Made by a program: the position numbers and the translations under genes. The notes beneath the pieces are model-generated. The model was not told the DNA's origin and did not search any database. It saw only the letters and a program-made list of their open reading frames with translations. From Candidatus Schekmanbacteria bacterium RIFCSPLOWO2_02_FULL_38_14 (lineage in GTDB: Bacteria; Schekmanbacteria; GWA2-38-11): a DNA stretch of 64,000 nucleotides. Location: NCBI GenBank assembly GCA_001790855.1, contig MGDH01000036.1:30937-94936 (forward strand), given 5' to 3'. Position 1 is the first letter of the stretch; each line of letters begins with the position of its first letter. Shown piece by piece: positions 3,279-25,925 of this stretch.

Positions 3279-3833
3279 CTAAGCTTCCCAGTCATAATGG
3301 CATTTGAGGCAGGACTTCTTTGAATCCTCCTCCTCGTGACAGTCAAAACAGGTAGTCATTTTTGGTCGGTTAGTAGTAGGATTCTGTTTGTCGTGGGCTA
3401 TGTTGCTATGGCAGTCTGTGCACTTGGCACCAACCTCTTCTATATGAAATTTATGAGGTATTTTGATATTTAAAGGATTTGTTTTAAAGCCTTTCTGCTC
3501 ATTGGTTTTGGGAATATCCTTGTGGCACCTGATGCAGTTCGGGTTAACCCTTTCAGAATGGGCTGAATATCCCCTTGGGATAAACTCATCAGGCTTTGCA
3601 TGGCACTGGGGGCACTTGACATTTTCAGGATGTACTTTTGAAGACCTCCAGAACTCGGAATGAGCCTGCTTATAATGACATGTCATGCAGAATTGACGTT
3701 GCGATGTAGTATATTGCTCCAACACAATAAAGGATGCAATCCCGCCAATCATAACAAAGATTCCAATAAGAACCCAGTATTTAAAAGGCATTTCAGGTAA
3801 TTTCTTCGCAATTCTTATAGCTCTTTCAACCAA
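3279..3833 (-). CDS. NapC/NirT-like membrane-anchored hexahaem cytochrome c
   Basis: A 184-residue protein with one N-terminal membrane anchor (about residues 18-40) and six CXXCH haem sites: CMTCH, CPQCH, CIRCH, CTDCH, CFDCH and CLKCH. The anchor plus first haem (QRQFCMTCH) resembles the NapC/NirT/NrfH family, which takes electrons from quinol and delivers them to periplasmic partners; ImcH of Geobacter is a related case. It is the last gene of the long minus-strand respiratory cluster, 134 bp after the molybdopterin oxidoreductase. It is therefore likely to link that enzyme, or the other cytochromes, to the quinone pool. The two C-terminal haems lie in a cytochrome c3/c7-like segment with spaced His residues (PHKFH). 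Confidence 0.88.
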   Translation of the reverse strand: MVERAIRIAKKLPEMPFKYWVLIGIFVMIGGIASFIVLEQYTTSQRQFCMTCHYKQAHSEFWRSSKVHPENVKCPQCHAKPDEFIPRGYSAHSERVNPNCIRCHKDIPKTNEQKGFKTNPLNIKIPHKFHIEEVGAKCTDCHSNIAHDKQNPTTNRPKMTTCFDCHEEEDSKKSCLKCHYDWEA

Positions 3834-3967: not shown

Positions 3968-6286
3968 TTATACTTTCGTAATTCTCACCACTGTGTCCAT
4001 CCATGCCTGGCTTCCGCCTATCGGGTCAGGTTCTGCCAGAATAACAGGATTGGGATGAACTCCATTCCCGTCTTCCTCCCACCAGATAAACTCAGTATTA
4101 AGTTCATCGCTCTTAAATTTCTTTGCCTTTGCTATTCTTCCGTATTCCCAATGGCCACAACTATCAGAAAGGGCAACCACATTAGGGTGAATTCCATTTG
4201 TAAGCCAGACTTTTGTTTTAATACTTCCAACGCTGGAATCAATTTTTATTTCATCATCTTTTTCAATCCCTAGTTTTTTTGCGGTATTAGCATTTATCCA
4301 GAGTTTGTTTTCGTGCACTATTTCCGACAACCACATACAGTTTGCAGTTTTTCCGTGTGTATGGACATTCAACTGGAATGTAACAAGGTGAAATTCATTA
4401 TCCTTCATCTTTGCATGCTCGGCTATAGGTTCGTACACAGGCAATGGATTAAACCCTTTTTCCTCCATCCGCTTTGAATAAATTTCTATTTTTCCTGAAG
4501 GGGTTTTGAATCCATTTTTCTCATATTGCTTATATTCAGGCTGAGCCTCTGTGTCATACCAGATTCCATTATCTCTCAGGTACTCAAAACCTCCTGCCTC
4601 CGCAAGTTTATCTATCTTGGAAGCCTGTAATTTTATGTAATCCTTTGTTGAATTAAAACTAAAATACTTCTCCATCCCTCCGCCAATCCTTTTTGCCAGC
4701 TCAATCATTATATCAGTATGGGATACTGCTTCTCCGAGTGGTTTCACCACAGGTTGTCTCAGGCTGATAAGTGGCACAAAGCCAAGTGAAGGCGGAGTTT
4801 CTATTTCCCATCTTTCAAGATAAGTAGCTTCTGGAAGGATTATATCAGCTAATGCTGTACTTTCTGAATAGAATGAATCAATCGCTACATAGAATGGAAT
4901 TATTCTTTCATCCTTCAATACATCTCTTATCTCCAAAGAATTCGGGCTGGAGTAGACAGGATTATAGTTATAGGTCATATAGAGACTTACTTTTTCTTTA
5001 CCTGCTTTTATCATTGGAAGCACTTGGTAAAAAGCTTCATGTTGAAGCAAAGGGAAATTTGATGGATTTGAAAGCTCGCTTTTAATAGAAGGTGCTGGCG
5101 GCAATGGTTCCAAATCATTCAACTCATATATTCGCGGCATGCAGTAACCGCCTTTAACATCAATATTACCGGTTATTACATTCAGCAGAAAAATGCACCG
5201 TTCATTGTAGGTACCATTCCTGTGCTTTGTCACTCCTCCTGTAGAAATTGTTGTTGCAGGTTTTGTCTCTGCAAACTCCAAAGCTATTCTTTTAATTTCT
5301 GCTGCTGATACACCGCTTTCTTTTTCAGCCGCTTCAGGAGTGTACTGACTCAGATGCTCTTTGAGTTTATTCACTGGATAGTTAGTCCATTTTTCCAAAA
5401 ATTCTTTATCATATAAGCCTTCCTGCATTATAACATTAGCCATTGCAAGAGCAACTATACCATCTGTGCCTGGTTTTATTGGATGCCATTCATCGCTCTT
5501 TCCTGCAGTCTGAGACACTCTCACATCAAAGGTAACAATCTTTGCAGGACTGTGCACTCTGCCTTCAAAGAGCCTCATTGTCCTTCCCTCTGCAATCCTC
5601 TGCGCAAAGCTTGTCCTCAGGATGTGCGCTTCATATGGATTTGAACCAAAGTTCAGCATGTATTGTGTATATGCAACATCGTTTATATCAATTTTCTCCC
5701 CCCATGTTAAAAGCTGAGAAACCTTTTTATTGGACCAGCCCAAATCTGCATGAACCAGCGCATTTGGAGAACCAAAAGCGTGCATAAATCGCTTTACAAA
5801 GTTTTGAGTCGTTATATCCCTTTCGCTCTGAATAATAAATTCCTCAGGATGTCCTGAATCCCTGATTGCCTTAAGCCTGTCTGCTATTGTATTGTATGCT
5901 TCCTCCCAGGTAATTCTTTTCCATTTTCCCTGTCCGCGGGCACCGCTTCTTTTCAAAGGATATAATATCCGGTCAGGGTCATAAACCAGATTAACCCCTG
6001 CCTGTCCCTTGGCACACAGCCTCCCTTTGCTGTTTGGATGGTCCTGATTCCCCTCAACTTTAACAAGTCTTCCATATTCCACAAACCCTAAAAGCCCGCA
6101 CCTCGCGTAGCAGTTTAAACATGTGCTTTTTACAGCCTTTCTGATTCTACCTGTAGTACGTGAAACAGATGTTCCGCGAGTTAGTTCTTCAGCCTTCAGA
6201 GAAGAATCAAGATATTTTTTTGCAGAAAGTATTGACCCCCCTGCTACTCCGATTTTCAAAAAATCCCTTCTTTTAAACTTACTCAT
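3968..6286 (-). CDS. Molybdopterin oxidoreductase catalytic subunit, Psr/Phs-like
   Basis: A 772-residue DMSO-reductase-superfamily protein with a twin-arginine signal (KFKRRDFLKIG), hence exported folded. An N-terminal [4Fe-4S] site is visible as C56-x2-C59-x3-C63-x27-C91, followed by Mo-bisPGD domains and a C-terminal dinucleotide-binding domain (about 640-760). With the downstream 4x[4Fe-4S] subunit and NrfD-like membrane subunit it forms a PsrABC/PhsABC/SoeABC-type complex, so the substrate could be polysulfide, thiosulfate, tetrathionate or another oxyanion. By eye, the segment GSPNALVHADLGWSN aligns with the stretch that normally carries the Mo ligand (Cys/Sec/Ser). Here Gly183 sits at that place, so the substrate and even redox activity at Mo are uncertain. 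Confidence 0.88.
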   Translation of the reverse strand: MSKFKRRDFLKIGVAGGSILSAKKYLDSSLKAEELTRGTSVSRTTGRIRKAVKSTCLNCYARCGLLGFVEYGRLVKVEGNQDHPNSKGRLCAKGQAGVNLVYDPDRILYPLKRSGARGQGKWKRITWEEAYNTIADRLKAIRDSGHPEEFIIQSERDITTQNFVKRFMHAFGSPNALVHADLGWSNKKVSQLLTWGEKIDINDVAYTQYMLNFGSNPYEAHILRTSFAQRIAEGRTMRLFEGRVHSPAKIVTFDVRVSQTAGKSDEWHPIKPGTDGIVALAMANVIMQEGLYDKEFLEKWTNYPVNKLKEHLSQYTPEAAEKESGVSAAEIKRIALEFAETKPATTISTGGVTKHRNGTYNERCIFLLNVITGNIDVKGGYCMPRIYELNDLEPLPPAPSIKSELSNPSNFPLLQHEAFYQVLPMIKAGKEKVSLYMTYNYNPVYSSPNSLEIRDVLKDERIIPFYVAIDSFYSESTALADIILPEATYLERWEIETPPSLGFVPLISLRQPVVKPLGEAVSHTDIMIELAKRIGGGMEKYFSFNSTKDYIKLQASKIDKLAEAGGFEYLRDNGIWYDTEAQPEYKQYEKNGFKTPSGKIEIYSKRMEEKGFNPLPVYEPIAEHAKMKDNEFHLVTFQLNVHTHGKTANCMWLSEIVHENKLWINANTAKKLGIEKDDEIKIDSSVGSIKTKVWLTNGIHPNVVALSDSCGHWEYGRIAKAKKFKSDELNTEFIWWEEDGNGVHPNPVILAEPDPIGGSQAWMDTVVRITKV

Positions 6287-6301: not shown

Positions 6302-7216
6302 TCAATGCAATGGCAGGCTCTGACCTGCAATTACCACCACAACTCTCATGGAATAAACCCCTATGAGAGTAAGTACCAAAGCTACAACTATGTTTCTCTT
6401 ATATTTATTCAACTTTGAATTAAATATTATAAAGAGTGGCACAAGACCGCCAAAGAATATTTCTACCAGCAAAAATTCCCCTGCAAACTCTCCAAAAAGA
6501 ATAAGCTTTGCCACCCTCAGAGCTTCCTCTGTGGAGGTAAGAAGCACAAGAATGTCATTAAAGACTAAGAATAAATCTGCTATAATAAATGCTGCGAGAA
6601 ATTTTGCCAGACTCCTTATCAGTTCATCATCCTTTTCTACCTCAGCAGGGGTTTTATCTTTTTGGAAATAAGTATTTCTGATCATTGCAAGCAATATAAC
6701 CAGAGAAATTCCGGAGACCATGGCAGATACAATAAAAAGAGTTGGCATCAGCGCAGTGCTCCAGAGTGCTCTTCCCTTTCCGAGAGCAAGAATAAACCCT
6801 GTATAACCGTGGGTTGCAAGAGCCAGCGGAATTCCGATTATCCCGAGGATCTTTGCTGTTTTATCTCTGCCGGTAAAAAGATACCAGGCATAAATTATTC
6901 CGTTAATAGGATATGCTGAAAGGAGAAAAGTTCCATAGGTGATTGGAGACTTCATATTGAGATAAAGAAACAAATGCCAGAAGCGGAATGGTTGTTCAAG
7001 ATCTATTATAAGTGTCAGAGGTGCCAACATCAGCAGAATTGGCGCAATTACAGCTCCAATTTTTCCAAATGGCTTGTATTCTACTTTGCCTCCAATAGTA
7101 GCAATAACTGATATGACAAACGAACCGGCACTCAATCCTGTCAGGTAAAAATATGTGGCAATCAAGTAACCGAGTGGCATCTCATAAGGTGTATTATAAA
7201 CTACGTTAACATCCAT
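6302..7216 (-). CDS. NrfD/PsrC-family quinone-interacting membrane subunit
   Basis: A 304-residue polytopic protein with about eight membrane helices and no haem-ligand pattern. The N-terminal MPLGYLIATYFYLTGLSAG segment and the internal EQPFRFWHLF motif are typical of NrfD/PsrC proteins, which exchange electrons between the quinone pool and an iron-sulfur subunit. It lies 3 bp downstream of the ferredoxin-like subunit gene and 15 bp upstream of the molybdopterin subunit, so the three are one operon and one complex. Direction (quinol oxidation or quinone reduction) cannot be read from sequence. Confidence 0.88.
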   Translation of the reverse strand: MDVNVVYNTPYEMPLGYLIATYFYLTGLSAGSFVISVIATIGGKVEYKPFGKIGAVIAPILLMLAPLTLIIDLEQPFRFWHLFLYLNMKSPITYGTFLLSAYPINGIIYAWYLFTGRDKTAKILGIIGIPLALATHGYTGFILALGKGRALWSTALMPTLFIVSAMVSGISLVILLAMIRNTYFQKDKTPAEVEKDDELIRSLAKFLAAFIIADLFLVFNDILVLLTSTEEALRVAKLILFGEFAGEFLLVEIFFGGLVPLFIIFNSKLNKYKRNIVVALVLTLIGVYSMRVVVVIAGQSLPLH

Positions 7217-7219
7217 ATT

Positions 7220-7831
7220 CTACTCTCTCCCTTTCATTGGATCCATCGCCTCAAGGTCAGCTCCTATATAAAAAACCTGAGGTTTAGTTGCCATTTCGGG
7301 TTTTAATACCTGGATAGGGTTTGCGGCAAGAAGCTCTGAAATCTCGCTTTTCGGATCCATGATGTTTCCAAATATCCTTGCTCTGCCAAGGCATGTTACA
7401 ACACATGCCGGAGCTATCCCTGCATCAACCCTGTGGTTACAGAAATAACATTTCTGAACTATCCTTCTTATTGGGTTCACAAACCGTACATCATAAGGAC
7501 ATGACGCAATACAGTATTTGCATCCTATACACTTGTGCGGGTCTACCATAACTATTCCGTCTTCCCTCTGATATGATGCCTTTGTCGGGCAGTTTTGAAC
7601 ACATATTGGTTTTTCACAGTTGTTACAGAGAGAAGGAAGAAAGGATCTGCTCACATTTGGATACTTCCCCTTTTCTATGATTTTGACCCATGACCTGAAA
7701 ACGCTGAGAGGAACATCATTTTCGCTCTTACACGCAACAGAACAGCTGTGGCATCCAATACACCGCCTCAGATCTATAACCATACTATATCTGACTTCAG
7801 TCTTTTCCTTTTCTTTATCAATAGCCATCAA
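7220..7831 (-). CDS. Four-cluster [4Fe-4S] electron-transfer subunit (PsrB/NrfC-like)
   Basis: A 203-residue protein with four cysteine groups: CIGCHSCSVAC, CNNCEKPICVQNC, CIGCKYCIASC and CYFCNHRVDAGIAPACVVTC. This is the 16-Cys pattern of PsrB/PhsB/DmsB-type subunits that wire the Mo subunit to the NrfD membrane subunit. There is no signal peptide, as expected for a protein co-exported with the Tat-targeted partner. The start may be Met1 or Met2. The C-terminal 40 residues after the last cluster lack cysteines. Confidence 0.9.
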   Translation of the reverse strand: MMAIDKEKEKTEVRYSMVIDLRRCIGCHSCSVACKSENDVPLSVFRSWVKIIEKGKYPNVSRSFLPSLCNNCEKPICVQNCPTKASYQREDGIVMVDPHKCIGCKYCIASCPYDVRFVNPIRRIVQKCYFCNHRVDAGIAPACVVTCLGRARIFGNIMDPKSEISELLAANPIQVLKPEMATKPQVFYIGADLEAMDPMKGRE

Positions 7832-7951: not shown

Positions 7952-9223
7952 CTATTTTTTAGATTCCAGTTCAAGGCTTACTTCACGGTATTTCAGGTAA
8001 AGCATTAGCAGTATGGCAAAGATTATTATAAGAAAATATACAAGGTTTTTCTTTCTCTGCTCCAGATTTTTATTAAAATCCGCTGTTAATTTTTGAATCT
8101 TATCAGTATTTGTTGTTACCTTCACGTTTATTTCATTAATCCTTTTTGGAGATAAAGCGTGTGTAAGAGGGCCAAGTTCAGTATAGAAAGTTTTAGCCTG
8201 ATTAAAAAGATCTTCCATATCCTGCATATTCCTTCCAGAATTTTCAATTCCCTTCATCGCTTTCTCAGCCCTGTCAAGGTTATCTTTTGTATCAAGAATC
8301 AATTCATGAATTTCTTTGGCAATGTCAATTGTATCTCTGTCGGCGTGGCATTCTCCGCAGTGGCCTGCCTCGCTGCCCTGAAACACCTCTGCTGTAAGCA
8401 TTCTATTCCTGTGATTGTCATGGCAGTCATAGCATTTTGGCCCACCTGATTTTTGTAAAGCCTCATAATGAGGACCCTCTTTGAAGTAAGAGAGAATTGT
8501 TGAGTGACAGTTGCCACAGACATCAGCAGTCTCTTTTACGCCCGGTGGTGTAGCTCCGTGTATCCCGTGGCAGGTTGCGCAATTAGGAACAAGAGATGGA
8601 TTTTTTCCTTGAATCTTTCCGTATAAAATCTGTCCGTGGTAGCCTTCTTTAAACAGTGAAAGCTGGTTGGAAGGGATTCCATATTTATCCATAAGCTTTT
8701 TATCAGCATGGCATTTACCACAGGTATCAGGAACATTTGTATGATAAATATGGGAATTGGGGTCATTCACTTTTTTTATGTCATGTGCCCCGTGACAACT
8801 TGAACATACAGCTACATTCACATCCCCCTCGCCATAAAGTTTCTTGCCATGAACGCTTGATTTGTAAAGTTCAAACTGGTCTGTTCTTAAATTATATCTT
8901 CTCATCCTGCCAATGTCGGAATGGCATTTTGCGCATAATTCAGGAACCTTTTTTTTGTCAGGAGTACCAAGGAAGCCTGCTACATCAAACATTGACTTGT
9001 CAGTATCATCCATTATTTTTGAATTTCCACCGTGGCAGTCGTGGCAGCTGACCCCTGCCTGTTTATGAACACTCCCCTCCCACAAGGTTACCGGCAGACG
9101 GAGTTCTCCATCCTGCCCTCTGTGGCAGTTGACACAACCACTATCTTCAACCGCATAACATAAAAAAACCGTTCCAGTAACGATAACAAATGACAGCAAT
9201 AATAACTTTGCAATTTTTAACAT
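7952..9223 (-). CDS. Membrane-anchored nine-haem cytochrome c, likely partner of the Rieske/b complex
   Basis: A 423-residue protein with an N-terminal signal peptide, nine CXXCH sites between residues 30 and 300, a long helical segment (about 300-390) and one C-terminal membrane anchor. Repeated SxHGxxLYG...CxxCHGxH units are those of cytochrome c3/c7-like families. It follows the Rieske, cytochrome b6 and subunit IV genes by 141 bp. It sits where cytochrome c1 or a diheme c would be in other quinol oxidase operons, so it probably accepts electrons from that complex. The helical C-terminal part could mediate partner docking. The ATG start has AAGGG upstream. Confidence 0.85.
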   Translation of the reverse strand: MLKIAKLLLLSFVIVTGTVFLCYAVEDSGCVNCHRGQDGELRLPVTLWEGSVHKQAGVSCHDCHGGNSKIMDDTDKSMFDVAGFLGTPDKKKVPELCAKCHSDIGRMRRYNLRTDQFELYKSSVHGKKLYGEGDVNVAVCSSCHGAHDIKKVNDPNSHIYHTNVPDTCGKCHADKKLMDKYGIPSNQLSLFKEGYHGQILYGKIQGKNPSLVPNCATCHGIHGATPPGVKETADVCGNCHSTILSYFKEGPHYEALQKSGGPKCYDCHDNHRNRMLTAEVFQGSEAGHCGECHADRDTIDIAKEIHELILDTKDNLDRAEKAMKGIENSGRNMQDMEDLFNQAKTFYTELGPLTHALSPKRINEINVKVTTNTDKIQKLTADFNKNLEQRKKNLVYFLIIIFAILLMLYLKYREVSLELESKK

Positions 9224-9364: not shown

Positions 9365-9802
9365 TTAAGACACATATCCCCATATAGTAAGAATTATAAA
9401 TCCTATCATCCCTGCAATTCCTAAAAATATTATAAATTTCCTTTTTCTTGGATTTCTTTCAGGATTTCTGTCAACAAAGGGAAAAATAACAAGAAGCAAC
9501 ATGACGAGTCCCTGAGCGAAAACTCCGAGTACTTTTGGAGCCCACTGCCCTAAAAAATCAAGATATTCTGCAGCCTTTAAACCCTGGTATGCAGCAAGAA
9601 AGTACCACTCAGGTTTAATATGTTCCGGAGTTGTAAATGGGTCTGCAGGAGGCTCCATTGGAGCAGGGTAATATGTTGCCAGGGTAAGAAGCAGCGCTAT
9701 AAGCATAAAGGCAACTATAACTTCTTTGAGCAAGTGATTCGGGAAAAATGGAATCCCTTCTTCTTCCCATTTTTCTTTAGATTCATTTAATTTATCACTC
9801 AT
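9365..9802 (-). CDS. Cytochrome b6f-type subunit IV (C-terminal half of cytochrome b)
   Basis: About 145 residues with three membrane helices and the quinol-site PEWY motif (HIKPEWYFLAAYQ), which defines the C-terminal half of cytochrome b. It is split from the N-terminal half as in b6f and Bacillus-type complexes. An upstream GTG at 9811 is possible, but the ATG at 9802 has GGGGTG six bases before it and is preferred. It is transcribed after cytochrome b6 and Rieske. Together they form the quinol-oxidising core. Confidence 0.9.
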   Translation of the reverse strand: MSDKLNESKEKWEEEGIPFFPNHLLKEVIVAFMLIALLLTLATYYPAPMEPPADPFTTPEHIKPEWYFLAAYQGLKAAEYLDFLGQWAPKVLGVFAQGLVMLLLVIFPFVDRNPERNPRKRKFIIFLGIAGMIGFIILTIWGYVS

Positions 9803-9878
9803 TTTAATCACCCCAATGGTTTAAATTACAAACAGAAAACTTTACAAAAACTAAAAACTCTTCTCTATTCACTGTTAA

Positions 9879-10613
9879 TCACAATGGCCCTGAAATCCCC
9901 TGCTTTCTTATCATTATGAAGTGCATTCCCAGAACTGCGCTTATCACAGGAGGCAAAATCGCAACATGGATTGCAAAAAATCTTGTTAGAGTAACCTGCG
10001 TTACATCAGCACCCCCGCGTATCAAAATTTTAAGAAGATTCCCGAAAATCGGCATTGCACTCGGCACTTCAGTTCCAACCGTTGTTGCCCAGTAAGAAAC
10101 CTGATTCCATGGAAGCAGATATCCTGTAAACCCAAAAGTCAGAGTCAGTGTTAAAAGAACAACACCTGTAACCCAGTTAAAATCTCTTGGTGGTTTATAT
10201 GCCCCGTAAAAAAAAACTCTTAGCATATGAAGAAAAACAGTAACTATCATCAGGTTTGATGCCCAGTGATGTATATCCCTGAAAAGCCATCCAAATGGAA
10301 CATTGTTTGTAATATGGACAACGCTTTTGTAAGCCTCTGCTGTTGTAGCGCGGTAATACATCAGAAGCAGCACCCCTGTAAAAGCCTGAACTAAAAACAG
10401 GAAAAAGGTCATTCCTCCAAGGCAGAATGAGAAATTAACATGGTGCGGCACAGGTTTCTTTAAATTTTTTTCCAAAGCCTCCTTGATGCTCAGACGTTCA
10501 TCCAGCGGACCATATACAAAGCCTGTAAGAGTTAGAAGGTTAAGTATTTCCCTGAAGCTTGTACGGGCAGCCAAACTCTTTTTCTCGTCTTTTTTACTTT
10601 CTTTTTCTTCCAT
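9879..10613 (-). CDS. Cytochrome b6-type subunit of a Rieske/b complex
   Basis: A 244-residue protein with four core membrane helices and the two pairs of haem-b histidines (RDIHHWASN and FLHMLR; FAIHVAILPP and GMHFIMI). A Cys in FSFCLGGMTFF matches the cysteine that binds the extra haem ci in cytochrome b6f and Bacillus complexes, so a third haem is likely. The N-terminal extension of about 60 residues is charged and probably cytoplasmic. It lies 17 bp downstream of the Rieske gene and upstream of subunit IV. The whole resembles a menaquinol:cytochrome c oxidoreductase. Confidence 0.92.
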   Translation of the reverse strand: MEEKESKKDEKKSLAARTSFREILNLLTLTGFVYGPLDERLSIKEALEKNLKKPVPHHVNFSFCLGGMTFFLFLVQAFTGVLLLMYYRATTAEAYKSVVHITNNVPFGWLFRDIHHWASNLMIVTVFLHMLRVFFYGAYKPPRDFNWVTGVVLLTLTLTFGFTGYLLPWNQVSYWATTVGTEVPSAMPIFGNLLKILIRGGADVTQVTLTRFFAIHVAILPPVISAVLGMHFIMIRKQGISGPL

Positions 10614-10630
10614 GGTTTAATTTACACCTC

Positions 10631-11086
10631 CTAACCTATTTTAATCTGGTCATTAATTATTTCTGCTTTATAACTTTCAAGTGGTCCTGGCGATGGACCT
10701 CCAAGGACATTACCTCGCAAATCAAACTTTGCTGCGTGGCACGGGCATGCAATCTGCTTTTCATCGGGATGCCAGTTAACAAGGCATCCTAAATGGGGGC
10801 ATATTGCTGACAAGGCAAAAACTCCTTCCTGTGTATGCACTACAATTGTTGGCTTCCCTTTATAACTTATTTTTGATGCGTTCCCAACAGGTATTTCAGA
10901 CAGGGCAATTGTGGTTCCCTCAGAACCTTCTTCTGTTGTTGAGCTCTTGGTGGGCCATAAAAATGCGAGACCTGTATAAGCCGTCAATACTGCCCATGCA
11001 GTAACTCCTCCGCCTATACAGTAATCAAGAAAAGTCCTTCGTCTCATTAAAACAGGCAACTCTTCTTTTTTTGCTTTTTCTTCCAA
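10631..11086 (-). CDS. Rieske [2Fe-2S] protein
   Basis: A 151-residue protein with an N-terminal Arg-rich Tat-like segment (RRRTFLDYC), one membrane helix, and both Rieske boxes: CPHLGC and CPCHAAKF. These give the two Cys and two His ligands plus the disulfide cysteines. It opens the cytochrome b6/subunit IV operon. The start is TTG at 11086, with AGGAGGG seven bases upstream. The C-terminal GGPSPGPLESY proline loop is conserved in the family. Confidence 0.93.
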   Translation of the reverse strand: MEEKAKKEELPVLMRRRTFLDYCIGGGVTAWAVLTAYTGLAFLWPTKSSTTEEGSEGTTIALSEIPVGNASKISYKGKPTIVVHTQEGVFALSAICPHLGCLVNWHPDEKQIACPCHAAKFDLRGNVLGGPSPGPLESYKAEIINDQIKIG

Positions 11087-11245: not shown

Positions 11246-13060
11246 TTATTGCTTCCTGCCTTTAAAAATCCCTTCAGCCTTGTTCAAGTTCTCCATTGAC
11301 TTGCGAAGCAGAGCATCCGCATAATCAACATTATGAACGCCCTTTGCGTATTTAACGAAATCATAGTTATACCTTGCATCATTTAAAAAATTGAATACTT
11401 CTGCAAATTTAGGATTGTTTTTATCAATTAGCTCCGCCATACTCTCAACTCTTTTCAGGGTCGGTTCAAGATTAGTCAGAGAACTTTTTATTGCATTTTT
11501 CCACTCATCTAACATCCCTTTGTAATCTTTTCCATGGCATGAAATACACCCCTGCTCTGACGGCTTCAAGGTAAACCCGTCAAAGACACCTCCCTGCGCT
11601 TTTTCCTTCAAAGCCTCTGTTACATGACAGCCTATGCAATCAACCTGTGCAGTAAACATTGGGCTTGGTATCGGCTCTATCCCTTTACCTCCAACTCCCA
11701 TATACATCTGCTTCTCTCCCAGATGTTTTGACTTGTGGCAAATATCACAGCTGTAATCCAGAGGTTCCATACTTGTGCGAACTGAGTGTTTAATTTCAAG
11801 ATGACACCTAGTACACTCAACATTTCTTTCTGTAACATGTTTTAGATGCATAAATTCCACATCTTTATACCTTGCAAGCTTTTCAGGCTCTCCATGGCAG
11901 ACAACGCAAAATTCCTGTGGAACATCTCCATTGCCTCTTATTGCATCAAGATGACATTTCTGGCAGGGAACTCCCCTTCCAACAAAATCCTTGTGATTGT
12001 AAGTTATATTCTGAAATTTAATATCTCGTTTAGGAACTTCGTGGCAAAGAGTACACCTTGCCTGGGTTTCAAGGAGATTTTTGTCTTCATTTATTCCTTT
12101 AAAATGGCAGACAAAACAGCTGTTCTCTGTAACTGCAATGTGTGTACCCTGGACAATCTGCGAATGGCATGAGGTGCATCTTAACTTCTTACCCCTTCTC
12201 ATTTTAGTTAAATGGACTGTATGGTCAAAAATTATTCCTTGCTTGAATATTACTTTTCCTGTCAGAAGCCTTGTTGAATGGCATCCCTTTCTGAGGCAGG
12301 AAGCATCTTCTATCTCAGCATATGGTTTTGTGCTGTAAGTTCCTGTTACCCATTTTACTACCTGGGTTGCCGCCTGAAATTTCCCCTTGACCTCTTCCCT
12401 GAATCCCGGAGGGTAATGACAATCAACGCATGGAACCGTATTATGTTTTGAGGTTTTCCAGGCATTGTAATATGGCCTCATGATATGACAGGATCTGCAG
12501 AAGTAGGAGCTTGTGCTGAATTCAATAAATGTAATAAAAAAAACAATTACTACCAAGAGACAGGTGCCAAGGAAATAATAAATCCTTGGAGAAAAATGCA
12601 TCACATCTTTTTTATCAACAGGGAAATGAACTCCAATATACTCAAAAAACCTTCTCCATTTTGCTTTTGATTTCTCTCTTTTCTCGATTAAAGACTCACG
12701 TTCTTCTGAGAGCCTTTTGACTATATTTACAAATTTATTTAAACTTAATGGTTTAACAAAATAATCTGAGGCGCCAGCCTTTATCAACTCAACAGCCGAT
12801 TCCTCAATCCCCTGCCCTGATGTAACTATTACAAATGAATTGGGAAATTTCTGTCTTATCTCATTTAATACTTCAATGCTGTTTCTGTCAGGTATGTGAT
12901 AATCAAGGATTACTATGGCTGGAGATTCATCCTTTACCTTTCTCAAACCATCTACTGCACTGCGAGAAATGATTACATCGTAACCCTCTCCCTCGAGCCT
13001 GATTTTTAAGGTCTCGCAACTTTTTTCATCATTATCAATTATTAATATTTTTTCGTTCAT
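11246..13060 (-). CDS. Response-regulator receiver domain fused to a membrane-anchored 12-haem cytochrome c
   Basis: A 604-residue fusion. Residues 1-120 form a receiver domain with every catalytic residue: D10/D11, phospho-acceptor D53 (ILDYHIPD), T80 and K103 (FVKPLS). A basic linker follows (120-155), then one membrane helix (about 160-180), then a periplasmic region with 11 CXXCH and one CX4CH (CLRKGCH) haem site, and a helical C-terminus. Residues 185-604 align by eye with the first 12 haems of the neighbouring 18-haem protein, including the CX4CH at haem 3. The reading frame is continuous and the start ATG precedes the receiver, so this is not two genes. A sigma54 promoter lies 84 bp upstream. 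Inference: cytoplasmic phosphorylation could control a periplasmic electron conduit, or the receiver could be a docking site. Confidence 0.9.
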   Translation of the reverse strand: MNEKILIIDNDEKSCETLKIRLEGEGYDVIISRSAVDGLRKVKDESPAIVILDYHIPDRNSIEVLNEIRQKFPNSFVIVTSGQGIEESAVELIKAGASDYFVKPLSLNKFVNIVKRLSEERESLIEKREKSKAKWRRFFEYIGVHFPVDKKDVMHFSPRIYYFLGTCLLVVIVFFITFIEFSTSSYFCRSCHIMRPYYNAWKTSKHNTVPCVDCHYPPGFREEVKGKFQAATQVVKWVTGTYSTKPYAEIEDASCLRKGCHSTRLLTGKVIFKQGIIFDHTVHLTKMRRGKKLRCTSCHSQIVQGTHIAVTENSCFVCHFKGINEDKNLLETQARCTLCHEVPKRDIKFQNITYNHKDFVGRGVPCQKCHLDAIRGNGDVPQEFCVVCHGEPEKLARYKDVEFMHLKHVTERNVECTRCHLEIKHSVRTSMEPLDYSCDICHKSKHLGEKQMYMGVGGKGIEPIPSPMFTAQVDCIGCHVTEALKEKAQGGVFDGFTLKPSEQGCISCHGKDYKGMLDEWKNAIKSSLTNLEPTLKRVESMAELIDKNNPKFAEVFNFLNDARYNYDFVKYAKGVHNVDYADALLRKSMENLNKAEGIFKGRKQ

Positions 13061-13143: not shown

Positions 13144-13159
13144 AGCAATTTTAGTGCCA
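13144..13159 (-). promoter_or_regulatory. Putative sigma54 (-24/-12) promoter
   Basis: Read on the minus strand the sequence is TGGCAC-TAAAA-TTGCT, matching the sigma54 consensus TGGCAC-N5-TTGCW at every position. It precedes the receiver-cytochrome gene by 84 bp. The flanking 13061-13298 is AT-rich with no gene. An NtrC-type sigma54 activator is encoded at 22340-23773, giving a candidate activator. Confidence 0.7.
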
Positions 13160-13298
13160 AAAATAATAAAAACAACTGTTTATGAATTAATTAGCTGTTT
13201 TTATTAACTTTATTTAAAATCTAAAAATTTTTTATTTAGTTTTTATTTTGTCAAAATATTATTTTTGATGACAAATTGTCATAGAATTTTTCAATTTC

Positions 13299-15347
13299 TT
13301 ACCGTTTTCCTCTGACTCCATATTTTTCCCATATCTGGTCAAGCACAGCCTTTGATTCTTTCAAAATAGTTTCTGAATATTCAAAGTTATGAACGCCCTT
13401 ACCTTTAAGAATTAAATTATAATTGCTTAAAGCTTCATTAAACACTTTCTTGTCATCTGTCACATCCTTGCCCATTTCTCTCTGTGCAAAAATAAGAGCA
13501 AGCTCATCTTTATCAATCAATGATTTTACTTCTCCAAGCATTTTTGAAATTTTCCCTTTCCAATCATCTAACATATTTCCATATTCCTTGCTATGACATT
13601 CAACGCATTTCCCTTTCATAACATTGATTGAATGTTCCTTGCCAATATTATGGCATCCGCTGCAGCCAATATCAGCTTGTGCCATCAGGCTTGGTTTTTT
13701 TTCTTTTTTCTTAAAACTATTAACATTGCCGTAATAAAGCTGGTACTGAAGGTTGTGGCAGCGCGAACACTGGGCTTTTTTATCATCGTGATGACAACCA
13801 ACGCACCCCTTCTTGTTTATTTCAGTCTTTTTGTGAACTTTCAATGAATGGCACTGCACGCATTCAAGCCCGATATCATTTATGTGGTGGCTATGGGGAA
13901 AATCTATTTCCTGGAATTCAAATTTCTCTCTGGTTTTAATAAGCTTGTGACACATAATATTGCAGTAAGCATCAGAGAATTTTAATATCTCGCTTCTTGA
14001 TGGAGGGGTAAAATCCTTATTCACCATCTTCATTGCTTCATCAATCATATCATTTGATGCCTTTAAAAGTTTTACAGCATATTCTACATTATGGGCACCT
14101 CTGCCTTCCTTTACAAAATTGTAGTTATATTTTGCATTCTCAATAAGCTGCTTTTCCTTTGAGATGTCTTTTCTGATTTTTCTAAAAGAACCAACTATCC
14201 CATCAGCATTTTCAATTCTTGGACCAAGTTCATTTAATATTTTGTTTATCTCAGCTTCCCATACATCAAGCATCTGGTCATATCCTGTGGTATGGCATGC
14301 AATACACGACCTTTTGTCTGCTTTAAAACTCTTATCTCCCAGGATATGAGTCCCTTTAACAGTTTCAACCTGTGTATGGCATCCATCGCAGGCAACCTGT
14401 GCAGCAAACATACGGCTTGGAATGTTTTCAATCCCTCTGCCCGTTGCACCCATATACATCTCTTTCTGTGCTGAATGGAGCTTGCTGTGACACCCCTCAC
14501 AGGAAATCTCAAGAGTCTTTACCATCTTTACATTTTTGTGTTCAATTGGTGTATGGCAAGAGAGGCAGTCTATTCCATGTTTCTTAACATGATTATCATG
14601 TATAAACTGATGGTCCTCATATTTTTCCATTCTTTCAACATGACATGAATGGCATTTCTCTTTTGGGGCGTTTCCTTCTCCTTTGACTACATCCACATGG
14701 CATTTGCTGCACGTAACTCCTGTTCTCAAGTACTGTGTGAGGTCAACCATAAATCCACCGTGTTCAACAACTCCCTTTGGGCTTCCATGGCATGAAGGAC
14801 ATCCTGTTACTGCCTCACCCTTTGCAGCGCCTTTAAAATGACAGATAAAGCAAACCTCGCTTGTAACATCAATATGGCTTCCCTGAACTATCTGTGAATG
14901 GCAGCTCGTGCATCTGAGCATTTTTCCTCTCTTAATGCCGCTTAAATGTTGTTTATGGTCAAACTCAATCTTTCCTTTAAATTTTATTTTACCGGGCAGC
15001 ATTTTTGTCTCATGGCATCCCGACTGAAGGCAATTACTGCTCGGAATTTCTGTCCTTGGCCTTGGATTATAAGAATTTGCAAAATACTTTATTGTTGAAA
15101 CCAGCATCTTAAAACTATTATATTCGTGGCACTTCATGCAACTGACATTTTTATGGGAAGATGTCTTCCATTGCTCATAATATGGTTTCATATAATGACA
15201 GTTGAGACAAAATGTTGGGTTTTTTGTCCTGTAAAAAACAAAAATATTCAGAGCTATTGCAAAAGCTATTAACCCTGAAATAATAAGAATTATCTTCCTC
15301 TTCCTCTGCCAGATACCATTGCCGATTTTTTTTATACTGTTAACCAT
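13299..15347 (-). CDS. Membrane-anchored 18-haem cytochrome c
   Basis: A 682-residue protein with a single N-terminal membrane helix (about 18-36), then 18 haem motifs by my count: 16 CXXCH, one CX4CH (CLQSGCH, haem 3) and one CX3CH (CNIMCH, haem 13). Residues 40-430 parallel the receiver-cytochrome protein, with the helical segment ending YNYNFVKEGRGAHNVEYA. A second block of six haems ends in a similar helical segment (YNLILKGKGVHNFEYS), so the gene looks like an internal duplication. The first haem (PTFCLNCHYMKPYY) is NapC/NirT-like. It probably carries electrons from quinol across the periplasm. No outer-membrane porin partner is in the window. Confidence 0.88.
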   Translation of the reverse strand: MVNSIKKIGNGIWQRKRKIILIISGLIAFAIALNIFVFYRTKNPTFCLNCHYMKPYYEQWKTSSHKNVSCMKCHEYNSFKMLVSTIKYFANSYNPRPRTEIPSSNCLQSGCHETKMLPGKIKFKGKIEFDHKQHLSGIKRGKMLRCTSCHSQIVQGSHIDVTSEVCFICHFKGAAKGEAVTGCPSCHGSPKGVVEHGGFMVDLTQYLRTGVTCSKCHVDVVKGEGNAPKEKCHSCHVERMEKYEDHQFIHDNHVKKHGIDCLSCHTPIEHKNVKMVKTLEISCEGCHSKLHSAQKEMYMGATGRGIENIPSRMFAAQVACDGCHTQVETVKGTHILGDKSFKADKRSCIACHTTGYDQMLDVWEAEINKILNELGPRIENADGIVGSFRKIRKDISKEKQLIENAKYNYNFVKEGRGAHNVEYAVKLLKASNDMIDEAMKMVNKDFTPPSRSEILKFSDAYCNIMCHKLIKTREKFEFQEIDFPHSHHINDIGLECVQCHSLKVHKKTEINKKGCVGCHHDDKKAQCSRCHNLQYQLYYGNVNSFKKKEKKPSLMAQADIGCSGCHNIGKEHSINVMKGKCVECHSKEYGNMLDDWKGKISKMLGEVKSLIDKDELALIFAQREMGKDVTDDKKVFNEALSNYNLILKGKGVHNFEYSETILKESKAVLDQIWEKYGVRGKR

Positions 15348-18534: not shown

Positions 18535-19785
18535 CTACCGCTTCCTCCTGAAATACCCATACAATTCCAGCGCAACATAACTAACAAAACAGACAATCAG
18601 TATACTTATAAACCATATATAAAACTGCCTTACATAGTATTTGCCTAAAGAACTTTCCTTCTTTGCCTCAACATGTATTTTTCCAATAGCAAATTTTCCT
18701 GTTGCTCCCGGATGGCATTTCCCGCAGGTTTTGGGTAAATTATCTTTATTGATTAGCGAATTTTTATCAGAAGATGGAAGTATGTTGTGGTAACCATGAC
18801 AGCTTGCACAATTTGCAACAGTCACTTCCCCGAATTTGCTCGCCATTCCGTGATAGCTGTCAAGATAGGTTTTGTATCTTGCTCCCGGGATTCCGTACTT
18901 CTCAGTCAGTTTTACATCTGAGTGACAGACCGAGCAAGTTTCAGGAATATTTTTTGGAGCAACCTTTGAGGAAGGTTCAGAAGACGCTGCTATTGTATGT
19001 TCTCCGTGGCAATCAGTACACACAGGAGAATCCTTAATGCCACTTAAAATTGCCTTCCCGTGGATGCTCTCCACATACTGGCTATAGACTGAATCATGAC
19101 ACCTAGCGCATACCTTTGGAATATTCGCTTTGTTCTTCAAGGATTTTGGATCATCAGCAGGTTTTATTTCGTGGGCCCCATGGCAGTCGCTGCAAACAGC
19201 AGAAACAATAAGCCCCTTCTCCGTAATTGCACGTCCATGAATGCTTTTTTCGTATGATTTAATAAACTCTATTCCCGGCAGATTATATTTTTTTACAATT
19301 CTCTGGTCCTCATGACACTTTGTACATGTCTTTATCTGTTTCGCCGGTGAAGTTGAACACTCGGGGTCATCTGCACAGAGAATATAATGCTTTCCATGAC
19401 AGGTTGCACATCCCGGAACATTTCTGTCGCCTTTGATAAATTCCCTTCCGTGCACACTTTGAGCAAAGCTTGCAAATTCTTTTTCGTGGCACGTCTTGCA
19501 CTCAACTTTTTTCAGGGATTCTTTGTGAGGAAAATCTTTGATGTCTTTTAAATCATCATGGCAATAAATGCATCTTACATTTTTATGAACTGACCTGTTG
19601 AATTCCTTGCCCTCTACGAAAAGCAAAATCTCTTCGCCTGTTGCAGATTTTCTTGAAAGGCTTTTATCCTCATGGCATCCAAAACATTCCTCATTTGAAA
19701 CACCGGCAGTCTGGCTTGAAGCCTTTAAAGGTAAAAAAATGATTAAAATCATCAGAAACATTGCTACAGGAAAATTCTTAAGCAT
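18535..19785 (-). CDS. 11-haem cytochrome c with C-terminal membrane anchor
   Basis: A 416-residue protein with a signal peptide, 11 CXXCH sites and a C-terminal membrane helix ending FRRKR. Internal repeats follow SxHGxxxxxGxxxxPxCxxCHGxHxI, and the last haem is the CGKCHPGA motif shared with its paralogues at 16552 and 19778. The start ATG overlaps the end of the upstream fusion gene by 8 bp, so translation is coupled. With the cytochrome b at 17739 it forms the split equivalent of that fusion. Confidence 0.87.
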   Translation of the reverse strand: MLKNFPVAMFLMILIIFLPLKASSQTAGVSNEECFGCHEDKSLSRKSATGEEILLFVEGKEFNRSVHKNVRCIYCHDDLKDIKDFPHKESLKKVECKTCHEKEFASFAQSVHGREFIKGDRNVPGCATCHGKHYILCADDPECSTSPAKQIKTCTKCHEDQRIVKKYNLPGIEFIKSYEKSIHGRAITEKGLIVSAVCSDCHGAHEIKPADDPKSLKNKANIPKVCARCHDSVYSQYVESIHGKAILSGIKDSPVCTDCHGEHTIAASSEPSSKVAPKNIPETCSVCHSDVKLTEKYGIPGARYKTYLDSYHGMASKFGEVTVANCASCHGYHNILPSSDKNSLINKDNLPKTCGKCHPGATGKFAIGKIHVEAKKESSLGKYYVRQFYIWFISILIVCFVSYVALELYGYFRRKR

Positions 19786-22339: not shown

Positions 22340-23773
22340 CTACATTTTGGTAGTTATTTCACCTTTGATATTTTCAGAGTCAATCTCTTTCAATTTATCT
22401 TTAGTAATTCCATAATTCTTTATTTTTCTGTAAAAGGTCTTGCTGCCAATTTTTGCCTGTACCAGTGCCGCCCTGACATTTCCATCGCACCTTTTCATTA
22501 ACTCAGCTAGATACTTTTTCTCATTCATCCTTAACCATTCCCTGAGCGAAATCCCCTCTGTTTTTAAACCGGTATTGAGAAAATCAATTTTCTTTTCCTC
22601 TGTTTTTTTATGAGATACAGGCAAATCTATTTTGGAAATCATCTTGCCTCTTTCCAGAATAACTGCCCTTTCTACAATATTCTCCAGCTCTCTCACATTT
22701 CCGGGCCAGTGGTAATGCATCAGAGAATCAAGAACATTCTGTGAAAAGGCATAAATTTCCCTACCTGTTTTTTCACAGTGCTTCTCAAGAAAGTGCAATG
22801 CCAGGACAGGAATGTCTTCCAGTCTTTCCCTTAGAGGAGGAATGTTTATAGGGACAACATTCACCCTGTAGTAAAGATCCTCACGGAATTCTCCATTAAC
22901 AACTCTTTGCTTTAAGTCTTTATTGGTAGCGGCTATTATCCTTACATCAGCTTTTATCGTTTTGTTACCTCCAACTCTTTCAAACTCCATTTCCTGCAAA
23001 ACCCTTAAAAGCTTAACCTGCATGGCTGGAGTGACATTCCCTATTTCATCCAAAAAAATTGTCCCCTTGTCAGCAAGTTCAAATTTCCCGATTTTCTGCC
23101 TTATCGCTCCTGTAAAAGACCCCTTCTCATGGCCAAAAAGCTCGGTCTCAAGGAGAGTATCAGGCAATGCACCGCAATTTATGGCAACAAATTTGTTCTC
23201 CTTCCTGTTACTGTTATAGTGAATTGATTTTGCCACCAACTCTTTCCCGGTTCCGGTTTCTCCATAGATTAAAACTGTTGCATCAGTCACTGCCACGCTT
23301 GCTATCAGGTCGAAGATTTGCTGCATTTTGTAATTCTTGCTGATGATATTTCCAAATCTGTGCTTTTCCGCTATCTGATTACGCAAATAGAGGTTTTCAT
23401 CTACAAGTTTCAGATGTTCAAAAGCCCGTTCAACAACAAGCTTAATCTCTTCTGCCTCAAAGGGTTTGGAAAGATAGTCTATGGCACCGGTTTTCATCGC
23501 TTTAACAGCAGTTTCAACAGAACCATGGGCGGTCATTATTACCACTGATGTCTGCGGATATTTTTCCTTTATTTTTCCAAGAAGTTCAATCCCGTCCATT
23601 CCCGGCATCTTAATGTCCACAACTGCCATCCCAAATGGTTCCTCTTTGAGACATTCCAAAGCCTCAAAACCACTATGGCAGACTTTAACCTCATAGGATT
23701 CTCTGCCAAGGACTTTTCGCAAATGTTCACAGATTATTTTTTCATCATCAACAATTAAAATCTTTTTGTTCAT
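22340..23773 (-). CDS. NtrC-family sigma54-dependent response regulator
   Basis: A 477-residue regulator with a receiver domain (D9/D10, phospho-acceptor D53 in VVDIKMPG), an AAA+ sigma54-interaction domain (Walker A GETGTGKE, the sigma54-contact loop GSFTGA, Walker B-like GTIFLDEIG) and a C-terminal Fis-type helix-turn-helix (GNVRAALVQAKIGSKTFYRK). The frame extends 28 codons further, but the Met at 23773 starts the canonical MNKKILIVDDE. It is 22 bp downstream of the haem-motif sensor kinase gene, its obvious partner. Likely target: the sigma54 promoter at 13144-13159, and perhaps others in the cytochrome cluster. Confidence 0.93.
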   Translation of the reverse strand: MNKKILIVDDEKIICEHLRKVLGRESYEVKVCHSGFEALECLKEEPFGMAVVDIKMPGMDGIELLGKIKEKYPQTSVVIMTAHGSVETAVKAMKTGAIDYLSKPFEAEEIKLVVERAFEHLKLVDENLYLRNQIAEKHRFGNIISKNYKMQQIFDLIASVAVTDATVLIYGETGTGKELVAKSIHYNSNRKENKFVAINCGALPDTLLETELFGHEKGSFTGAIRQKIGKFELADKGTIFLDEIGNVTPAMQVKLLRVLQEMEFERVGGNKTIKADVRIIAATNKDLKQRVVNGEFREDLYYRVNVVPINIPPLRERLEDIPVLALHFLEKHCEKTGREIYAFSQNVLDSLMHYHWPGNVRELENIVERAVILERGKMISKIDLPVSHKKTEEKKIDFLNTGLKTEGISLREWLRMNEKKYLAELMKRCDGNVRAALVQAKIGSKTFYRKIKNYGITKDKLKEIDSENIKGEITTKM

Positions 23774-23795
23774 TGTAAAACAATGTCCTTTTAAA

Positions 23796-25925
23796 TTAGT
23801 ATTCAAGGGAATTAGGATACAAAGTAAGGATAAATTCTGTTCCTTTCCCAACCTCACTGTTGACTTTTATCTCACCCTTGTGAAGCTTTACAATCCTCTG
23901 GATTATCGCCATGCCAAGTCCCACGCCTTTAGTCTTGGTAGTGAAAAAAGGGTCAAAAATCCTTCCGAGATTCCCTTCTGCAATCCCATGCCCTATATCC
24001 CTTATTCTAACCTCAGAATAATCCATCCCTTTGCCGGAAAGGTTTTTTGTTGATATCATTATCTCTCCGCCTTCAGGCATTGCTTCAATGGAGTTTTGAA
24101 TCAGGTTGATAAAAACCTGCTTTATTTTCATGCCGTCTATTCTTATATACTTCTTGTCTCCGCAAAAGTCTCTTTTTATCTTTGTATGATTTTTCTCAAA
24201 AATTTCATCCATACTGGTAAGAACTTCATCTAATATTTCATCTATATCACATTTAAATATATCTAATTTCATGGGTTTTGAAAAATCCAAAAGATCCTCT
24301 ACAATAGTGTTTAGGCTTTTTACTCCTTCCATTATATTTTCAATAGTCTCCCTGCACTCCTTGTTACCCTCGGTCTCATATTTAACCAGACTAATCCCCA
24401 TACTTATATTCTGCAACGGATTCTTTATCTCATGGGCAACACCGGCTATCATTTCTCCCATCGCAGACAGCCTTCTTGACTGCTCGATTTCCTCATTCAT
24501 TTCTTTCTGCTCGGTGATATCTCTTACATATTTTATCACCTGTGTTGTCCTTCCTTCACTGTCCTTTAATGGAAATGTCAGCATTGACCAGTATCTCTTT
24601 CCCTCTGATTCTTTTTTTACAATCCTTTCTCCTGTTGAAGACTTGCCTGTTGTCATAGTTACCTCTACCGGGCATCCCTCGCAAACTCCGTCTTTATCAG
24701 TAAATTTCTCATAACAGAGCTGTCCGATTAATTCATCTTCAGATTTCCCTGACATTCTTACCTGTCCTTTATTGACAGCAACCACACGATAGTCCTTGTC
24801 CATGATAGAAATGCCATCAGTAATCCCATCAAACAGCGCCTGAAGACGGTTCTTTGCCTCTAAAACCTTTTCTCCCCATGTCATCTTCTCTTCAGCCTTG
24901 ACTCTCTTTATGTTAATTGTTATCAGATAAATACTTCCGCAGAAAAGGACTAAAACCACAAGCCCTGTCATGAAAAGAATGTTCCTGTTGCTTTGCTTTA
25001 TCAGGCTTATTACATTTGAATAAGGGGAAGAAACCGCTATTGACCAGTTTGCAATTCTCATTCCTTTTTCGCTCAGGCGAGGAATATATCTCTTATCAAA
25101 AATTTTTATTGGGTAATAGGCAATTATTTTTTTTCCTCCAGTCTTTACAAAGTATTCCTTTGTCCCTATTTCACCTCTCACCATCCTTTTTTCATTTTCA
25201 AAGCTTTCATGACATTGAAAACAGGTTCCATCGTTTTTAAATATATTTCTCCATATCATCTCGGGATGAGAAGGATGGTAGAGCAGCGTCCCATCTTCAT
25301 TCAGAATCCATGCATACCCTATAACCCCTCTTTTAATGGGTTTTGAAAAAGTCTGTGCCAGTTCCTTAACATCTATATAGCATACCAGAATCCCTAAAAA
25401 TTCCTTGCCTTCTCCAATTTCAGTTTTAGTCTGTTTATGTATTGGGAAAGAAATGATTATTTCCCTTCTTCCTTTATTCATGGTAGCCTTTGATATAAAT
25501 GGCTTCAAGGTTTGCTTTGAAAAAACAAAAAAGTCCTTATTGTCAAACGAATTAATATCCTTGTTTTTCAATGACTCAGGTGTTGGATATTGAGACAACA
25601 TCTCCCCTTTTGCGTTTATAAAAGCAGTACTGATAATTATTGAATCAAACTGTAAATTTGAAAAAAGCTTATTTAAAAGAGGTGTCGTTTCTTCTAATTC
25701 TGAAATATTCCTGCCTAAAAAAAATGCTGCAAGATTAAGCTCATCCAGTGTTTTTTTAAAAAAACTCTCAATAAGTATTGCAACTTCGTGTGCCACAATT
25801 AACTGCTGGGAATTAAATTGGCTGGCAATCTCCTTTTCAGAGGATTTCTGAACATTGAAAGCAACAACTAAAATAATACCTATCACAAGTGCTATGATAA
25901 CCGCTAATCCTGTATTGTTTTTCAT
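23796..25925 (-). CDS. Sensor histidine kinase with a c-type haem motif in its periplasmic sensor domain
   Basis: A 709-residue kinase. It has a membrane helix (about 5-24), a large periplasmic Cache-like domain (about 30-310) holding CFQCH (C235-H239), a second helix (about 315-337), and a cytoplasmic PAS domain (about 355-475) with a cysteine set C404, C415 and C418 (DGVCEGCPVEV). Then come HisKA with the phospho-acceptor His498 (GVAHEIKNPLQN) and a HATPase domain (GHGIAEGNLGRIFDPFFTTK, GVGLGMA). The CXXCH suggests covalent haem c, so it may sense redox state or a gas ligand, as haem-containing sensors of Geobacter do. The PAS cysteines could bind a metal or respond to redox. It is cotranscribed with the sigma54 activator and adjoins the cytochrome cluster. 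Confidence 0.92.
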   Translation of the reverse strand: MKNNTGLAVIIALVIGIILVVAFNVQKSSEKEIASQFNSQQLIVAHEVAILIESFFKKTLDELNLAAFFLGRNISELEETTPLLNKLFSNLQFDSIIISTAFINAKGEMLSQYPTPESLKNKDINSFDNKDFFVFSKQTLKPFISKATMNKGRREIIISFPIHKQTKTEIGEGKEFLGILVCYIDVKELAQTFSKPIKRGVIGYAWILNEDGTLLYHPSHPEMIWRNIFKNDGTCFQCHESFENEKRMVRGEIGTKEYFVKTGGKKIIAYYPIKIFDKRYIPRLSEKGMRIANWSIAVSSPYSNVISLIKQSNRNILFMTGLVVLVLFCGSIYLITINIKRVKAEEKMTWGEKVLEAKNRLQALFDGITDGISIMDKDYRVVAVNKGQVRMSGKSEDELIGQLCYEKFTDKDGVCEGCPVEVTMTTGKSSTGERIVKKESEGKRYWSMLTFPLKDSEGRTTQVIKYVRDITEQKEMNEEIEQSRRLSAMGEMIAGVAHEIKNPLQNISMGISLVKYETEGNKECRETIENIMEGVKSLNTIVEDLLDFSKPMKLDIFKCDIDEILDEVLTSMDEIFEKNHTKIKRDFCGDKKYIRIDGMKIKQVFINLIQNSIEAMPEGGEIMISTKNLSGKGMDYSEVRIRDIGHGIAEGNLGRIFDPFFTTKTKGVGLGMAIIQRIVKLHKGEIKVNSEVGKGTEFILTLYPNSLEY

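Follow-up and report, generated by a model that had tools for sequence, protein, structure and literature searches.

As a rule, domains with the receiver fold are part of regulators, kinases or enzymes of the cytoplasm. Those PF00072 domains that lack any one of five active-site residues were defined as pseudo-receivers by Bourret and co-workers (PMC12632262); about 80% of them carry a non-acidic residue at the second position of the acidic pair (DD2), the position most often non-acidic in that set, which binds the metal directly. In the Rieske/cytochrome b complexes of Kuenenia stuttgartiensis, the membrane helices of multihaem cytochromes were modelled inside the complex together with an extra cytoplasmic module, and a dimer was assumed (PMC12954380).

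The 64-kb window considered here (the whole stretch of DNA that was analysed, from Candidatus Schekmanbacteria bacterium RIFCSPLOWO2_02_FULL_38_14) encodes a protein that combines an electron conduit with a domain of the receiver fold. This had been proposed in the initial annotation of the DNA, and the architecture proved to be common to independent genomes, namely all four that are available for this uncultured phylum. It is unusual for a receiver to have become fixed at the cytoplasmic tip of a respiratory haem conduit with part of its chemistry apparently lost, and a full-text search of open-licence papers returned no description of a receiver-multihaem cytochrome fusion.

The fusion gene and its respiratory cluster

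The gene is a single unbroken frame of 604 amino acids on the minus strand, in line with the continuous frame first described, and the same fusion is found in three more genomes. The gene and the segments of its product are as follows.

11246..13060, minus strand: fusion gene for pseudo-receiver, long helix, membrane helix and 12-haem NapC/NirT-type cytochrome, 604 aa (orthologs in four genomes)
12707..13060, minus strand: pseudo-receiver domain, residues 1-118, with D9, N10, D53, S81, Y100 and K103 (Pfam, AlphaFold, Foldseek, active-site comparison)
12635..12742, minus strand: continuous helix, alpha5 extended to residue 142, residues 107-142 (AlphaFold models, high confidence)
12587..12706, minus strand: linker, residues 119-158, with the cytoplasmic juxtamembrane segment IGVHFPVDKKDVMHFSPR common to the unfused homologue of genome G017
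12515..12586, minus strand: sole membrane helix, residues ~159-182 (hydropathy and AlphaFold model)
11534..12499, minus strand: periplasmic 12-haem region, residues 188-509 (motif count, Pfam)
11249..11530, minus strand: C-terminal helical extension, residues 511-604 (AlphaFold model)

Pfam assigned Response_reg to residues 5-114 (E 1.7e-18) and NapC/NirT (PF03264) to residues 168-245 (E 3.8e-14), and several cytochrome c3/c7 models were matched as well. The protein has both the N-terminal membrane anchor and the NapC/NirT haem region of that family. A single hydrophobic helix and twelve c-haem motifs were counted, as in the initial annotation; 11 of the motifs are CxxCH, and the remaining one, at residue 255, is CX4CH. 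The AlphaFold2 model begins with a confident receiver fold (pLDDT 91-97 across most residues). The last helix of this fold runs on to residue 142, and a brief juxtamembrane stretch then leads into the membrane helix. Compared with solved receivers by Foldseek, the domain reached a target TM of about 0.9. The haem region of the full-length model is mostly of low confidence, with no haems placed and a shallow alignment.

The genes around the fusion gene make up a respiratory gene cluster.

13299..15347, minus strand: 16-haem paralogue without receiver, separate clade (Pfam, tree)
10631..11086, minus strand: Rieske iron-sulphur subunit (Pfam, synteny)
9879..10613, minus strand: cytochrome b, N-terminal part (Pfam)
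9365..9811, minus strand: cytochrome b C-terminal part / subunit IV, petD-like (Pfam)
7952..9223, minus strand: multihaem cytochrome, 423 aa (Pfam)
7220..7831, minus strand: iron-sulphur subunit, TtrB/DsrO-like (NCBIfam)
6302..7216, minus strand: NrfD-like membrane subunit (NCBIfam)
3968..6286, minus strand: molybdopterin oxidoreductase, PhsA/DmsA-like (NCBIfam)
3279..3833, minus strand: NapC/NrfH-like small multihaem cytochrome

The Rieske and cytochrome b genes adjoin the fusion gene in all four genomes. Where the contigs reach, the order 16-haem paralogue, fusion, Rieske, cytochrome b, subunit IV, multihaem cytochrome is conserved, and the genes for the iron-sulphur, NrfD-like and molybdopterin proteins continue the cluster in three genomes. 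The fusion protein is best regarded as a putative membrane-anchored 12-haem cytochrome subunit of this Rieske/cytochrome-b gene cluster, and strand and spacing suggest that the cluster may be read as a single transcript. The unfused homologue of G017 is likewise clustered with Rieske, cytochrome b, iron-sulphur and NrfD genes. Elsewhere in the window, one 633-aa frame (19778-21679, minus strand) encodes a multihaem cytochrome and a cytochrome b561-type membrane domain in a single protein (Pfam); full-length homologues of this frame are present in the other three genomes of the phylum (G001, G002 and G003).

Distribution and origin of the fusion

The full-length fusion is present in four of the four available Ca. 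Schekmanbacteria genomes, a small sample from four genera and two families; G001 is 70% complete, G003 is 97% complete and two of the contigs carrying the fusion are short. A stop or frameshift near the receiver-cytochrome junction in related genomes had been named as the sign of two wrongly joined genes, and none occurs in the three further genomes. Since the identical junction is found in four separate genomes, and the fusion lies beside the Rieske and cytochrome b genes in each, an assembly or frame error was rejected, its probability being practically nil. Purifying selection across receiver and linker also speaks against an artefact (dN/dS about 0.14 between the source genome, G000, and G001, at a dS of 1.5, which is near saturation).

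Candidatus Schekmanbacteria bacterium GWA2_38_11 is the closest named relative (77% identity over nearly the full length); it was the sole match of a named-genome search with one query sequence, which says little on distribution. With a profile of the four fusions, a homologue of the cytochrome was detected in 37 of the 386 genomes of the 'relatives' set, and only the four Schekmanbacteria proteins reach into the receiver. At the loci checked, no receiver was located beside or in front of an unfused homologue. Six further phylum searches (around G017, G023, G050, G305, G107 and G312) revealed no fusion outside the phylum; these phyla are small, so that the added sampling is modest. Overall, about 400 other genomes were searched, of which more than 30 encode the cytochrome and none has a receiver attached to it. 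In G023, which belongs to another phylum, two adjacent receiver-like frames with D-x-D starts (IADTDQ and IVDKDR; L063, 23-3443, minus strand) lie approximately 2 kb from the unfused 12-haem gene and on the opposite strand to it, possibly by chance.

In a tree of the cytochrome part, the fused proteins form one clade (support 99/96) among unfused 12-haem and longer relatives, which supports the view, already expressed in the initial annotation, that the fusion is a derived feature. The argument given there, that the paralogue at 13299 is without a receiver, is misplaced, because the 16-haem proteins of the fusion-bearing genomes sit in a separate clade (support 100/97); the paralogue was rejected as ancestor of the fusion for the same reason. 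What informs is a comparison with the unfused 12-haem protein of G017, which is 55% identical and shares the cytoplasmic pre-membrane segment IGIHVPVDRKDILHFSPR. It begins about 20 residues before this segment, right after the receiver boundary. The simplest history is thus that a receiver was set before a complete cytochrome gene. This gain at the cytoplasmic N terminus would have taken place in the ancestor of the phylum, and part of the phosphorylation chemistry would have been lost later.

Active site of the fused receiver

The active site had been described as intact (D10/D11, D53, T80, K103), of which D53 and K103 were found as stated. Residues 9-11 read D-N-D, so that the position of the acidic pair is occupied by D9 and N10, and T80 precedes the actual Ser/Thr position, S81. 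While the first acidic residue (DD1) is Asp in all four genomes, DD2 is N, V, A or S, one in each. An acidic second residue was present in 27 of the 27 other receivers of the source genome examined by alignment with the fused domain. At the Ser/Thr position, Ser is found in G000 (S81) and G001 and Ala in G002 and G003, the latter two forming one family of the phylum. D9, D53, Y100 and K103, among them the phospho-acceptor Asp and the conserved Lys, are invariant.

Lacking the direct Mg ligand DD2, the fused domain is a pseudo-receiver by the definition of PMC12632262, and gating of the conduit by phosphorylation is not supported. The phosphorylation chemistry has probably been lost. The four invariant residues could reflect a retained weak phosphorylation, as the reaction can survive substitutions at DD, T or K and some such domains are perhaps weakly phosphorylated (PMC12632262). 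The invariant D53 is no proof of phosphorylation, because the Asp may instead take part in forming a dimer, as it does in GlnR and RamR (PMC12632262). The K+2 residues in the four genomes are L, V, V and I, which belong to a class said to favour the active conformation without phosphate (PMC12632262).

A sensory role was considered in which the pseudo-receiver binds a quinone or some other small ligand close to the side of the complex that faces the cytoplasm. The gene association with a quinol-oxidising type of complex would fit, and the pseudo-receivers of CikA and KaiA bind quinones (PMC12632262), but the nearest solved structures by sequence and fold are ordinary receivers. The four-genome alignment contains no conserved cysteine in the receiver that could form a disulphide switch, for which reason a redox disulphide in this domain was rejected. 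Ligand or redox sensing by the domain is regarded as very unlikely.

Predicted promoter, proposed role and likeness to known systems

Four further features concern the regulation of the cluster.

13145..13159, minus strand: predicted sigma-54 (-24/-12) promoter TGGCACTAAAATTGC, 84 bp before the fusion start codon, with counterparts in the other three genomes
13249..13273, minus strand: inverted repeat TGTCA-N14-TTGACA, candidate enhancer site for an NtrC-type activator
22340..23857, minus strand: NtrC-type sigma-54 activator, candidate operon regulator
23796..25925, minus strand: dCache-PAS histidine kinase, candidate partner of the activator

The element at 13145-13159 is the sole exact sigma-54 consensus (TGGCAY-N5-TTGC) within the window. 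The other three genomes have such an element in the equivalent gap, at distances of 98, 106 and 280 bp from the start codon, so that a -24/-12 element precedes the fusion gene by 84-280 bp in all four, and a four-way alignment revealed it as the most conserved block of the upstream DNA. The inverted repeat TGTCA-N14/15-TTGACA is located approximately 110-130 bp upstream of the sigma-54 element in three of the four genomes, with no second match in the stretches scanned in those three; the fourth genome has a variant. We take this combination to be the layout of an enhancer-dependent promoter. Around five unfused homologues, the scanned stretches contain no exact sigma-54 consensus. The conserved sigma-54 promoter and the enhancer-like repeat, both predicted regulatory elements, are a new finding. 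In G001, an exact sigma-54 consensus (TGGCACAAAAATTGC; L059, 16918-16932, minus strand) also immediately precedes a 425-aa frame that carries 6 haem motifs, which suggests that the fusion gene is not the only multihaem gene driven by sigma-54 in the phylum.

The window and G002, which represent different families, both carry the genes for the histidine kinase and the NtrC-type activator (44% and 64% identical), and these lie at matching ends of the cluster. At E<=1e-60, neither G003 (97% complete) nor G001 (70% complete) yielded an ortholog of the kinase; both genomes encode many related activators and no ortholog of the kinase/activator pair at the thresholds used. The kinase as a conserved partner of the fusion was rejected on these grounds. 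G002 has a second pair of histidine kinase and NtrC-type activator at the opposite end of the cluster (L055, 4319-8437, minus strand), accompanied by a phosphonate-binding-type periplasmic protein and an exact sigma-54 consensus at 4319-4333. A receiver-like stretch with three in-frame TGA codons, perhaps a decaying gene, adjoins a relative (34%) of the cluster's histidine kinase in the source genome (G000:C42:112597-113031, minus strand).

According to the initial annotation, phosphorylation by the adjacent kinase might gate the conduit. A slow but working receiver, in which the neighbouring kinase phosphorylates D53 and thereby alters clustering of the conduit or electron transfer, would account for the invariance of D53, K103, D9 and Y100 in four genera and for the kinase in the same cluster in G000 and G002, and partial chemistry can persist where DD or T is missing (PMC12632262). 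However, all four genomes lack the direct Mg ligand, and the two of one family also lack the Ser/Thr; the fusion persists in G003 and G001, where the kinase ortholog was not found, and the complete receiver of the adjacent activator is the obvious target of the kinase. Such a mechanism is considered rather unlikely.

As a further possibility, the membrane-tethered pseudo-receiver might bind the kinase or the receiver of the activator and in this way adjust how strongly its own operon is transcribed through sigma-54. In two genomes that belong to different families, a single cluster encodes the kinase, the sigma-54 activator and the pseudo-receiver, the fusion gene carries the conserved promoter sequence, and a precedent has been proposed for the pseudo-receiver CmrT in the CmrRST operon (PMC12632262). 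Against this, fusion and promoter persist in G001 and G003, where orthologs of this particular kinase and activator are missing or were not found, and feedback of this kind appears on balance fairly improbable. An influence of the haem redox state on signalling, already raised in the initial annotation, is possible; that the pseudo-receiver informs the two-component system driving its own sigma-54 operon whether the haem conduit is present or in what redox state it is, which would make an electron-transfer subunit a covalent component of signalling, seems quite unlikely.

We favour, with a probability of roughly 0.5, the explanation that the two-component system switches the operon and that the pseudo-receiver works beneath the membrane, independently of phosphorylation, as a module for docking or dimerisation. 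The operon would be transcribed from the predicted sigma-54 promoter, so that the two-component system would set the amount of fusion protein made. The fused protein may anchor beside cytochrome b and carry electrons in the periplasm, a geometry rendered plausible by the Kuenenia model (PMC12954380). From the receiver fold we infer docking or dimerisation through the surface of the domain and its long helix. Either two copies of the conduit could be held together through this helix (residues 107-142), or a cytoplasmic partner could be tethered to the complex by the pseudo-receiver. If true, this would show a new way of coupling two-component regulation to an electron-transport complex. The fusion provides a concrete case for pseudo-receiver action without phosphate, called a mystery in the 2025 review (PMC12632262), and the conserved promoter sequence makes the regulatory half directly testable.

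Among the proteins compared, the unfused homologue of G017 has the same cytochrome, juxtamembrane segment and Rieske/cytochrome b/NrfD neighbours, but is without the receiver and, in the stretch examined, without an exact sigma-54 consensus. With the membrane-anchored multihaem quinol dehydrogenases NapC, NirT and NrfH, the fusion protein shares an N-terminal anchor helix followed by NapC/NirT-type haem motifs, and NrfH is among its few solved sequence relatives (2j7a, E 5.4e-6); it differs from them by its 12 haem motifs, the C-terminal helical extension and the cytoplasmic pseudo-receiver of 118 residues. In the Rieske/cytochrome b complexes of K. stuttgartiensis (Kuste4569-4574 and Kustd1480-1485; PMC12954380), the cytoplasmic extra is a putative NAD(P) oxidoreductase, whereas here it is a pseudo-receiver, and the gene neighbours of the fusion encode NrfD, iron-sulphur and molybdopterin subunits. 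FrzS, GlnR, CmrT and the pseudo-receivers of PleD, CikA and ShkA (PMC12632262) have in common with the fused domain the PF00072 fold missing at least one of the five active-site residues. A text search of that review found no mention of the word 'cytochrome'; the examples it discusses are regulators, kinases or cyclases, whereas in the Schekmanbacteria protein the attached part is a respiratory cytochrome.
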